64,000 nt of DNA from Owenweeksia hongkongensis DSM 17368 (GTDB taxonomy: Bacteria; Bacteroidota; Bacteroidia; Flavobacteriales; Schleiferiaceae). The translations under genes and the position numbers were made by a program. Within the stretch, counting starts at the first letter, position 1, and every line of letters starts with the position of its first letter. The stretch is taken from positions 1-64,000 of the forward strand of contig CAMBEZ010000002.1 in NCBI GenBank assembly GCA_945865885.1. Reading direction: 5' to 3'. Below the pieces are notes generated by a model. The model did no database searches, was not told where the DNA came from, and saw nothing but the letters and a program-made list of their open reading frames with translations. Below, piece after piece: positions 14,217-18,289 of the stretch.

Positions 14217-14855
14217 CTACCGAACGAGCACTTCCACCACGGCTTTGGTGGAAAAAAACTCGGTGGGAATCCGGTCCGCCAGCGGATGAACGGTGCAGTG
14301 GGGTATGCCCTGCAGTTCTTCACTCAAATCGCCGCCCTTGAGGGCCAAAAGCCTACGTCCTGCGCCTGGGGCCCATTGGTAGCGCATCCATTCCAACAAC
14401 TGCGGCATGGGGGCAACCGCCCGCGTAACCGCGGTGCGAAAGCCGCCCGGCAAGGACTCCACGCGTGCGTGCACGGCCTCCACATTCTTCAATTCCAAGG
14501 CGTCGGCCAGGGCCTGAACCACCTTGATTTTCTTGCCGATGGAATCCACGAGGGTAAAATGGGCGTTGGGGTACAAAATGGCCAAAGGAATGCCCGGAAA
14601 CCCGCCGCCCGTGCCAATATCCACCACGCGCTGACCGTCCAGTGGGCCCAAGATGGGGGCCAAACAGGCAGAATGCAGGAGGTGACGTTCCGCGGCGTGC
14701 TCCATATCTTTTCTGGATACCACGTTGATTTGCGCATTCCAAACGGCCAATTCGGCCGGTAAAGCTTGCCATTGTTCGCGCTGGTGGTCTGTCAGGAATA
14801 AACCCAAGGATTCCAAGTATCGGATGGCATCCTGTGAAGAAAGTAGTGCTTCCAT
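14217..14855 (-). CDS. rsmG: 16S rRNA (guanine(527)-N(7))-methyltransferase
   Basis: RsmG (GidB) methylates G527 of 16S rRNA using SAM. The protein has 212 residues, typical of the family. The SAM-binding motif VVDIGTGGGFPGIPLA is at residues 78-92, with WNAQINVVSRKD and the closing RAVAPMPQLLEWM region also visible. The ATG at 14855 was chosen: it lies one base after the upstream glycosyltransferase stop and gives the family's usual N-terminus, whereas a longer frame to 14981 overlaps that gene. It is the second gene of a two-gene unit with the glycosyltransferase and converges on the pruA terminator. Confidence 0.95.
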   Translation of the reverse strand: MEALLSSQDAIRYLESLGLFLTDHQREQWQALPAELAVWNAQINVVSRKDMEHAAERHLLHSACLAPILGPLDGQRVVDIGTGGGFPGIPLAILYPNAHFTLVDSIGKKIKVVQALADALELKNVEAVHARVESLPGGFRTAVTRAVAPMPQLLEWMRYQWAPGAGRRLLALKGGDLSEELQGIPHCTVHPLADRIPTEFFSTKAVVEVLVR

Positions 14856-14856
14856 C

Positions 14857-16008
14857 CTACCAACGTCGCTTGGCGGGCGTGAAGGTGCGGCGAAGTGCCA
14901 ATCCTGCGCGTTGGGTCCAGTAGACCCATTCCAAAACGGGGAACAGAGCCACCAATCCACCCAAGGCGAGGAAGCGTCCAACCAAGGCCCACTGAATCCA
15001 AACCAGCACGGTCCGGCCGACCACCAGGATCAGCCAGTAGATCCACCAGTTCGGAACCATGGGGATGAGGACGGCCGTACCTATTGCGGACAACGCGAAG
15101 ATCCACTGAACCCAGCTCTGAAACTGAAGCGCCGCAAGCGTGGAGGGTCTGTAGGCGGAACGCGCTTGGGCTTGGTCCCGCAAGGTGCGCTTCCACCGGT
15201 CTTTGTTGGACGGCAACGGAACGGAAATTTGTGATTCCGGCTGCAGCAAAACCCGCACTTGGGTGTGGGGGGCCGCCTCGTTCACGAAGAGATCGTCCTC
15301 ACCAGAGGTCAGGTGCATGTGCGAAAGAAATCCTTTTAATTCAAAAAAGAGCGAGCGCTGGTAAGCCAAGTTTGCTCCGTCGCCAGACAATACTAAGCCC
15401 CACTTGGCCCAAGACAAATATTCCAATTGACGAAATGCATGCGCAAACCGAACGGTTCGTGCCCACCATCCTGTTCCGCCTTCCATGCGCACTGCGCCCA
15501 ACACAAGGCGCACGTTGGGATCCGCCAGGGGCGCTGCCATGTGGGCGGCCCACTGATTGGAAACGGGCATCCCCTCTGCGTGCGTAAGGAGCACCGCGTC
15601 GGTTTTAGCCGCCTTGATGCCCAAGGTGATGGGGAATTTCTTGCTGTCGTAAAATCGTTCGGATTTGGGCACCAGCACCTGGTGCATCTGGGGATAACGC
15701 ACCCGTAACTTGTCCAATACTTGCTCCGTATCGTCTCCGCTTTGGTTGTTGATGGCCACCCAATCCAGTTGATTGGCATACTCCTGTAGGTCCCATCGTT
15801 CCAAGAGCTTCGGGAATAAATCCTCAGCGTTTCGACCGTCTGCCAGCAGCGACAGGGGTGGCAAATTGGAAGGGGTTACGGTGCCTTTTTTGGACGCCCA
15901 GGCTACTTTGGCAAACACCCCCATCCAAAAGAAAAGTTGGAGAAAAACAGCGCCTGCCAGAACGCTCAACGCGGTCCAGAATACTGTGGGGTGGGAGGGG
16001 TCAAACAT
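14857..16008 (-). CDS. Membrane-bound family 2 glycosyltransferase
   Basis: This 383-residue protein has one N-terminal membrane helix (about residues 9-32), a cytosolic GT-A domain and two or three C-terminal helices (from about residue 285), the layout of processive or lipid-linked GT2 enzymes. VAINNQSGDDTEQVLDKL marks the nucleotide-sugar half, LLTHAEGMPVSNQW the DxD-equivalent region and SGEDDLFVNE the acceptor/catalytic ED motif. The usual DxD appears replaced, which is notable but not unusual in divergent GT2 proteins. The ATG at 16008 follows a TACTTTTG box by four bases. The sugar and acceptor are unknown. It is co-transcribed with rsmG. Confidence 0.82.
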   Translation of the reverse strand: MFDPSHPTVFWTALSVLAGAVFLQLFFWMGVFAKVAWASKKGTVTPSNLPPLSLLADGRNAEDLFPKLLERWDLQEYANQLDWVAINNQSGDDTEQVLDKLRVRYPQMHQVLVPKSERFYDSKKFPITLGIKAAKTDAVLLTHAEGMPVSNQWAAHMAAPLADPNVRLVLGAVRMEGGTGWWARTVRFAHAFRQLEYLSWAKWGLVLSGDGANLAYQRSLFFELKGFLSHMHLTSGEDDLFVNEAAPHTQVRVLLQPESQISVPLPSNKDRWKRTLRDQAQARSAYRPSTLAALQFQSWVQWIFALSAIGTAVLIPMVPNWWIYWLILVVGRTVLVWIQWALVGRFLALGGLVALFPVLEWVYWTQRAGLALRRTFTPAKRRW

Positions 16009-16012
16009 CGCA

Positions 16013-16020
16013 CAAAAGTA
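16013..16020 (-). promoter_or_regulatory. -7 box of the glycosyltransferase gene, four bases from its ATG
   Basis: The minus strand reads TACTTTTG-TGCG-ATG. The exact TAnnTTTG match four bases before the start codon predicts a leaderless or nearly leaderless transcript. No TTG -33 element is evident. Confidence 0.6.
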
Positions 16021-16035
16021 GTGAAAAGCGCGGCG

Positions 16036-16043
16036 TACTTTTG
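16036..16043 (+). promoter_or_regulatory. -7 box of tgt, four bases from its ATG
   Basis: The plus strand reads TACTTTTG-CAGT-ATG, the same box and spacing as the divergent glycosyltransferase gene. The boxes are 15 bases apart, so the two polymerase footprints overlap. Confidence 0.6.
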
Positions 16044-16047
16044 CAGT

Positions 16048-17178
16048 ATGCGATTTGACCTTACTGCCCAAGATCCCGGAAGCAAAGCCCGCGCCGGAGT
16101 GCTGCACACGGACCACGGTCCCGTTCAGACTCCGCTGTTCATGCCGGTGGGTACCGTGGGCACGGTCAAAGGGGTGTTTCCGCAACATTTAAAAGAGGAT
16201 ACGCACGCCGGCATTGTGCTGGGGAACACCTACCACCTGTACCTTCGGCCGGGAACCGACGTTTTGCACGAAGCCGGCGGCCTGCATAAATTCATGGGGT
16301 GGGACGGCCCCATGCTCACGGACAGCGGCGGTTTTCAAGTATACTCCCTGGAAGACCGTCGGAAAATCCGGGAAGAAGGGGTCACTTTTCAATCCCACAT
16401 AGACGGCAGCAAGCATTTGTTCTCTCCGGAGTCCGTGGTGGACATCCAGCGGCAAATTGGCGCGGACATTGTCATGGCCTTTGACGAGTGTACGCCCTAT
16501 CCGTGCCCGGAACCCTACGCGCGCGACGCTATGCACCGCACGCACCGCTGGCTGGACCGCTGCTTGGCGCGCTGGAACGAAACCGAGCCCCTCTACGGGT
16601 ACAACCAAGCGCTGTTTCCCATTGTTCAAGGAAGCGTTTATCCGGATTTGCGAAAAGAATCTGCGGATGCCGTGGCGGAAAAAGGCGCCTGGGGAAACGC
16701 CATTGGCGGCCTGAGCGTTGGGGAACCGCACGACGAAATGTACGCCATGTGCGAATTGGTGTGCGACCGCCTCCCCGCGGATCGGCCGCGCTACCTCATG
16801 GGCGTAGGCACCCCAGCCAACATCCTGGAAAACATTGCCTTGGGCGTGGATTTGTTTGACTGCGTTATGCCCACCCGGAACGCGCGCAACGGCCAACTAT
16901 TCACTTGGGAAGGAACGCTCAATCTCCGCAACGCCAAGTGGGCGCATGATTTCACTCCTCTGGACCCCGCCGGCACCAGTTTTGTGGACCAATCGTTTAC
17001 CCGGGCCTACCTGCGCCACCTGATTCACGCCGACGAATCCCTGGGCAAGCAAATTGCCACCCTCCACAACCTGAGGTTCTACCTGGAATTGGTGGAAACG
17101 GCCCGACAAAAAATCACCGAAGGCACTTTTGCTGCTTGGAAAAACCAAGTAGTTCCCAAACTGCAGCAACGCCTGTAA
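16048..17178 (+). CDS. tgt: tRNA-guanine transglycosylase
   Basis: Tgt exchanges guanine-34 of certain tRNAs for preQ1, the base-swap step of queuosine synthesis. The 376-residue protein has the standard active-site motifs: LTDSGGFQVYSL (Asp92), MAFDECTPYP, QGSVYPDLR, GGLSVGEPHDEMY, YLMGVGTP and the nucleophile region GVDLFDCVMPTRNARNG. The C-terminal zinc site, normally CxCxxC plus a His, is changed: the matching stretch reads PLDPAGTSFVDQ with no cysteine anywhere after position 16870. I recall this as a Bacteroidota trait, but it is worth checking. The ATG at 16048 gives a normal N-terminus. LptF/LptG follows 28 bases on. Confidence 0.95.
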   Translation: MRFDLTAQDPGSKARAGVLHTDHGPVQTPLFMPVGTVGTVKGVFPQHLKEDTHAGIVLGNTYHLYLRPGTDVLHEAGGLHKFMGWDGPMLTDSGGFQVYSLEDRRKIREEGVTFQSHIDGSKHLFSPESVVDIQRQIGADIVMAFDECTPYPCPEPYARDAMHRTHRWLDRCLARWNETEPLYGYNQALFPIVQGSVYPDLRKESADAVAEKGAWGNAIGGLSVGEPHDEMYAMCELVCDRLPADRPRYLMGVGTPANILENIALGVDLFDCVMPTRNARNGQLFTWEGTLNLRNAKWAHDFTPLDPAGTSFVDQSFTRAYLRHLIHADESLGKQIATLHNLRFYLELVETARQKITEGTFAAWKNQVVPKLQQRL

Positions 17179-17206: not shown

Positions 17207-18289
17207 ATGACCCGTCTGGACCGCTACCTCATAGGCAAGTACTGGGGAACGTACGTCTTGTTCTTGGCGCTCATCATGTCCCTAGCCGTGGTGTTTGACG
17301 TCTCCCAAAAACTGGACGACTTCATTACGGGACAGGTACCCGTAAGCGAAATCATCACCCAGTACTACGTGCATTTCGTGGCCTACTACGGCACCCTGTT
17401 TAGCGCGCTCATCGTCTTTCTTTCTACCGTGTTTTTCACCTCGCGGCTGTCTGCCCAAACGGAACTTGTGGCCATGCTCGTGGGCGGCATGAGCTACCAA
17501 CGCTTGCTTCGCCCCTATACCGTGGCGGCGGGGTCCGTTTGCCTGCTGCTTTTGCTGCTTCAGCACTGGTGGATTCCCGCCTCCAATGCCCGACGGATCG
17601 CCTTTGAAGACCGCTACGTACTGGATGCTCCGGTTCGGGACGAACGCCCCATCAACATCCACCGGCAGGTATCGCCCGGCACTTTTCTCTACTTTGAGAC
17701 GTGGAGCCCGGACCGCCTGTCCGGTTACCACCTCACCGTGGAGCGCATTGAGAACGGGCGCCTACAGCGCAAACTGAGCGCAGATTTTGCCCGGTTTGAC
17801 ACGGTCAAACAGCGCTGGTTTCTGGACCTGTGGTCGCTGCGCACTCTTGAATCCAACGGCGAAATCCTGACCACTGGGCGCGCCCTGGACACCGTCCTCC
17901 CGTTCGGACCGGACCGCGTTCTGCCTACGGCTTCGGAAATGTCTACCCTGAATTCATGGGATTTGTGGCAATTCCTGCAAGCAGAAAAAGTCAGCGGCTC
18001 CCCCACCGTAAAACGTTTGTCGTTGGAATTTCACCGCCGGTCTGCCTATCCCTTCAGCGTTTTCTTGCTCACGTATTTGGCTGTGGCGCTCGCCAGCCCC
18101 AAAAAACGCGGCGGATTGGGCAACAACATTGCGCTGGGTCTGGGGCTGGCCGTAACCTACCTGTTTGTGGTGCAGCTCACCGGCATGCTGGTCACCTCGC
18201 TGGCCTTCCCTCCCGTTTTGGCCATTTGGACCCCCAACCTATTGTTTGCCGGCATCGCCGTTTGGATGACTAAAAAAGCACCCAAATAG
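17207..18289 (+). CDS. LptF/LptG family lipopolysaccharide export permease
   Basis: This 360-residue inner-membrane protein has three N-terminal helices (first at about residues 13-32, LFLALIMSLAVVFDV), a periplasmic beta-jellyroll domain (about 105-260) and three C-terminal helices, the YjgP/YjgQ topology. LptF and LptG form the permease that, with the LptB ATPase, pulls LPS from the inner membrane to the periplasmic bridge. TELVAMLVGGMSYQRLLRPY matches the coupling-helix region. Sequence alone does not let me choose F or G; in Bacteroidota a gene like this commonly follows tgt, as here. Its stop touches the start of the EamA gene (TAGATG). Confidence 0.9.
   Translation: MTRLDRYLIGKYWGTYVLFLALIMSLAVVFDVSQKLDDFITGQVPVSEIITQYYVHFVAYYGTLFSALIVFLSTVFFTSRLSAQTELVAMLVGGMSYQRLLRPYTVAAGSVCLLLLLLQHWWIPASNARRIAFEDRYVLDAPVRDERPINIHRQVSPGTFLYFETWSPDRLSGYHLTVERIENGRLQRKLSADFARFDTVKQRWFLDLWSLRTLESNGEILTTGRALDTVLPFGPDRVLPTASEMSTLNSWDLWQFLQAEKVSGSPTVKRLSLEFHRRSAYPFSVFLLTYLAVALASPKKRGGLGNNIALGLGLAVTYLFVVQLTGMLVTSLAFPPVLAIWTPNLLFAGIAVWMTKKAPK

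Follow-up and report, generated by a model that had tools for sequence, protein, structure and literature searches.

How two operons can be started in opposite directions from almost no intergenic DNA is the question raised by tgt and its divergent neighbour, a membrane glycosyltransferase gene, which are separated by 39 bases (16009-16047 of the window, that is, of the whole 64,000-nt stretch of DNA analysed here). The preliminary description of this DNA reported an identical 8-base box exactly four bases before each ATG in a 39-base gap, with the boxes 15 bases apart, and both statements proved exact when the sequence was re-read. The + strand carries TACTTTTG at 16036-16043, and CAGT separates it from the tgt ATG at 16048; the - strand carries the box at 16020-16013, with TGCG between it and the glycosyltransferase ATG (16008-16006). 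The spacer between the boxes occupies 16021-16035. We think it probable that the gap consists of two compact divergent promoters of the primary sigma factor (Bacteroidota sigma-A), that both mRNAs are leaderless and that the polymerases using them probably compete. The elements of the locus are as follows.

14217..14855, - strand: rsmG (GidB), following the glycosyltransferase gene in the leftward operon (PF02527, E 1.1e-34; coordinates from the ORF list)
14857..16008, - strand: family 2/21-like membrane glycosyltransferase, 383 aa (PF13506, E 1.3e-6)
16008, - strand: predicted glycosyltransferase transcription start, A of the ATG, 40 bp from the tgt start (from the box-to-start spacing of F. 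johnsoniae)
16013..16020, - strand: putative -7 promoter box of the divergent glycosyltransferase, TACTTTTG; its CAAAAGTAGT block is invariant in six genomes
16021..16035, no strand: inter-box spacer, upstream region of both predicted promoters; 15 bp, diverging among aligned relatives
16036..16043, + strand: putative -7 promoter box of tgt, TACTTTTG; matches TAHHTTTG and is conserved in tgt orthologues
16048, + strand: predicted tgt transcription start, A of the ATG (could be 16049), from the 4-5 nt between box and start in F. johnsoniae (PMC6847099)
16048..17178, + strand: tgt, queuine tRNA-ribosyltransferase, 376 aa (PF01702, E 8.4e-158)
17207..18289, + strand: LptF/LptG-family permease, co-directional with tgt and downstream of it (PF03739, E 2.3e-56)

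Both flanking reading frames are genuine genes. The tgt start agrees with that of its orthologues, which align over residues 1 to 376, and the glycosyltransferase start, followed by an N-terminal hydrophobic stretch, also lines up with orthologues; in many relatives a glycosyltransferase homologue lies upstream of tgt on the opposite strand. Leftward, a single base separates the glycosyltransferase stop codon from the ATG of rsmG, which makes glycosyltransferase-rsmG the leftward unit; on the + strand tgt is followed by the LptF/LptG-family gene and then by an EamA-family gene. One promoter would thus serve tgt and the genes downstream of it and the other the glycosyltransferase-rsmG operon.

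The -7 element recognised by the primary sigma factor of Bacteroidota (sigma-ABfr/sigma-A) is TAnnTTTG or TAHHTTTG, and TACTTTTG satisfies this consensus on both strands. The expectation, voiced in the preliminary description, that transcription begins a few bases after such a box is borne out in F. johnsoniae, where RNA starts 4-5 nt downstream of it (PMC6847099). The upstream TTTG element at -33 is absent from its expected place in both promoters: at positions -36 to -33 tgt has ACAA and the glycosyltransferase GCAA. This absence counts against the proposal, though in F. johnsoniae the element is a weak one (PMC6847099). RNA polymerase recognising each TAHHTTTG box would begin transcription 4-5 nt further on, on the ATG or no more than about one base from it; both mRNAs would be leaderless and translated from a 5'-terminal AUG. 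Counted from the opposite start, each -7 box covers roughly positions -28 to -35; for this reason two polymerases should not be able to bind simultaneously, and the two operons probably compete at each firing.

The distance between box and start codon is more telling than the box itself. Within the 64,000-nt window TACTTTTG alone shows no enrichment (3 found, 1.54 expected), but the whole genome has 9 copies of TACTTTTG-N4-ATG and 2 of the reversed-pattern control. When the consensus TAHHTTTG-Nk-ATG was counted in the source genome (G000), 7, 80, 39, 28 and 13 matches were found at k=3, 4, 5, 6 and 20, and 4, 6, 5, 2 and 1 in the reversed controls. These counts come from direct scans for box and ATG, because the gene caller dropped tgt owing to an overlapping extended ORF. 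In a 413-kb sample where only open ATGs were counted, there were 34 matches at k=4-6, 5 at k=0-3 and 33 over the whole range k=15-30. Taking off about 5 matches per spacing as background leaves an estimated 130 or so genes with this one motif in the 1.8-Mb genome. The sharp edge between k=3 and k=4 is what leaderless transcripts predict, since a start 4-5 nt after the box must leave the AUG in the transcript.

This edge is common to both other genomes of the same genus g1 (G001, G002) and is also found in genus g12 (G013, G027, G035). It is weaker in G026 of genus g9 (20, 67, 37 and 21 at k=3 to 6), and there is none in G005 of genus g4 (49, 71, 60 and 72) or in G038, from another family of Flavobacteriales (147, 109, 111 and 142). 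The count at k=4 is about six times that at k=20 in G000, whereas the two are similar across most of the order. Judged by these spacings, the tgt layout is one case of an apparently genome-wide habit in a compact-genome lineage of Flavobacteriales. Two other near-leaderless arrangements can be seen in the window, TATATTTG-N4-ATG ahead of a 748-aa frame (53723, - strand) and TATCTTTG-N6-ATG ahead of a 400-aa frame (31544, - strand).

Failure of the pattern in close relatives had been named beforehand as an outcome that would speak against it. The comparison did not refute the pattern: it found a tgt gap of 4 in all six genomes of g1 (n=3) and g12 (n=3), two of them with a GTG start, of 4 in g9 and 6 in g6, and of 4-6 in 13 of the 18 genera of the family; other families often have 14-30. 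In this tally genus g3 is counted from an ATG 12 nt upstream, and g4 is mixed, one genome having a gap of 4 and another of 54. A promoter held at a fixed distance from the start codon is therefore what relatives retain for tgt, while the glycosyltransferase side is looser, with gaps of 4, 4 and 6 in g1, 8, 8 and 7 in g12, 11-13 in g9 and 3-8 in most others. The latter promoter appears near-leaderless but not fixed, its gap ranging from 3 to 13. Accordingly, the mirror image of two N4 spacings, exact in this genome, is special to this species pair and is not kept in relatives. Genus g6 has no glycosyltransferase match next to tgt. An RsmG-like gene lies opposite tgt there (L019, L020), with boxes at gaps 4 and 6 and 38-40 bp between the genes; the same geometry with a different gene behind it indicates that the promoter pair is kept although its cargo changes.

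The drift of the glycosyltransferase gap to 13 nt counts against the proposal of two leaderless mRNAs and is one of two points in favour of its most serious competitor, in which the promoters are real but initiation is heterogeneous or dominated by promoters further upstream, most mRNAs carry short or longer leaders and leaderless ones are minor. The other point is that leadered mRNAs are the majority of those mapped in three Bacteroidota species. In F. johnsoniae 13% have leaders no longer than 10 nt (PMC6847099), in F. psychrophilum leaderless mRNAs were measured at 5.5% (PMC9723704), and in B. thetaiotaomicron 5' UTRs shorter than 10 nt account for about 3.7% (PMC7366714); a leaderless contribution in Bacteroidetes was suggested from base composition (PMC5397173). 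However, with 39 bp between two coding flanks an upstream start would have to lie in the neighbouring coding sequence, the 90 bp ahead of the tgt start contain no further forward TAHHTTTG box, and the edge between k=3 and k=4 would not be expected from leadered genes. We regard mostly leadered mRNAs as an unlikely outcome at this locus, if one to be taken seriously. The low rates measured in other Bacteroidota count against leaderless mRNAs at this locus, since the proposal requires an unusually high share of them in this bacterium.

The two boxes also form a perfect 8-bp inverted repeat, CAAAAGTA...TACTTTTG, around a 15-bp spacer, as would an operator for a dimeric regulator controlling both genes. 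In most relatives, however, the symmetry is lost, with TATTTTTG, TACCTTTG or TAATTTTG opposite TACTTTTG; what persists is the TAHHTTTG consensus alone, with variable spacers. When six genomes were aligned, the invariant columns fell mainly on CAAAAGTAGT and TA..TTTGC, and the spacer diverged and changed length. Since the symmetry is not kept, we rejected the operator as the main explanation and give it little credence. That two ordinary 8-mer matches fell in a short gap by chance, or as conserved non-promoter sequence, fits the lack of enrichment of TACTTTTG by itself, but it is contradicted by the genome-wide spacing peak, the family-wide conservation of spacing and the conserved blocks at the boxes, and is hardly credible.

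Divergent promoters of this kind are not confined to tgt. A search of G000 for divergent boxes 0-30 bp apart, with an ATG at 4-6 from each, gave 35 one-sided matches and none for the reversed control. At least 11 mirror pairs have both gaps at 4-6 and are reported from both sides, with spacers that include 2, 2, 3, 3, 4, 7, 10, 12, 15, 22 and 30. Long open frames flank them; from the N-termini alone we take some of these to be peptide deformylase/RuvX, Lnt/PssA and a D-Ala-D-Ala ligase. Several pairs have the same or nearly the same spacer in G000 and G001 (2/2, 3/3, 3/3, 4/4, 15/15 and 22/21). One pair, CAAAGATA CC TATCTTTG, with boxes 2 bp apart and both followed by N4-ATG, is identical in two genomes (L237, G000:C27, near 2704; L246, G002:C63, near 3195) and is tighter than that of tgt. 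With such further pairs in the genome, the tgt/glycosyltransferase pair is one member of a class and not its tightest. Near-leaderless mRNAs at both genes are thus supported, as a prediction, by the genome-wide spacing, the conservation of the tgt gap and the mirror pairs. A wider proposal is more tentative, and we hold it somewhat less probable than its opposite: across this small-genome, high-GC Flavobacteriales lineage a large share of promoter-proximal genes (about 130 by this motif) may have shifted to leaderless initiation, with many housekeeping gene pairs placed behind back-to-back -7 boxes 2-30 bp apart, where the choice made by the polymerase would link the expression of two operons.

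Loss of the anti-Shine-Dalgarno sequence was considered as a cause of this habit and rejected, CCTCC being kept in most family members with a full 16S rRNA; the 16S of the source genome is incomplete. Its gene (G000:C36:107-997) is cut off near model position 902, and the 3' end is missing from the assembly. Four 16S 3' ends depart from CACCTCC, reading ATCTCC (L257, G006), ACCTCA (L258, G047), AACTCC (L259, G039) and ATCTCA (L260, G041), which suggests anti-Shine-Dalgarno decay in some lines of Flavobacteriales. As independent tests of leaderlessness, neither a Kozak-like A at -3 nor 5' folding energy split the two classes clearly, which counts against the proposal; A in positions -4 to -1 was lower (p ~0.05).

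Shine-Dalgarno sequences count for little in Bacteroidota, and leaders predominate in those cultured members that have been studied. The -7 box, leaderless mRNAs and divergent promoters are each already known; what appears to be new is that they are combined so compactly, and so often, in a small-genome lineage, which is solid as a sequence pattern. An incomplete literature search found no paper on leaderless bias or compact mirror pairs in this lineage. If the proposal of leaderless transcription is true, perhaps half of the recognisable promoters would sit directly on the start codon, making these bacteria a natural system for leaderless initiation in the phylum. The simple rule of box, N4-6 and ATG would predict leaderless genes and also help to place start codons correctly when such genomes are annotated; for polymerase competition, the closely packed divergent pairs would be ready test cases.

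Three known kinds of system resemble this locus most. Like other Bacteroidota sigma-A promoters, both boxes match TAHHTTTG, with a start expected 4-5 nt downstream; unlike them, they have no TTTG at -33, and the predicted start lies at the ATG and not about 20-30 nt upstream. Leaderless mRNAs make up about a quarter of transcripts in mycobacteria. As in bacterial leaderless mRNAs generally, the start codon, AUG or GUG, is predicted at the 5' end, although here this is read purely from promoter position; in comparison with the few percent measured in other Bacteroidota, such mRNAs are apparently much commoner in this lineage. Polymerase exclusion is established for the bidirectional promoters of E. 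coli (PMC12825309), in which the -10 elements overlap and the starts lie 7-25 bp apart, often 18 (PMC10268837). As in those described by Warman et al. (2021), the divergent starts are near enough for opposing polymerases to be expected to exclude one another. The predicted starts of tgt and the glycosyltransferase are 40 bp apart, however, and their boxes are separated by 15 bp, so that the tgt locus at most works like a bidirectional promoter in that sense and is not a member of the class.
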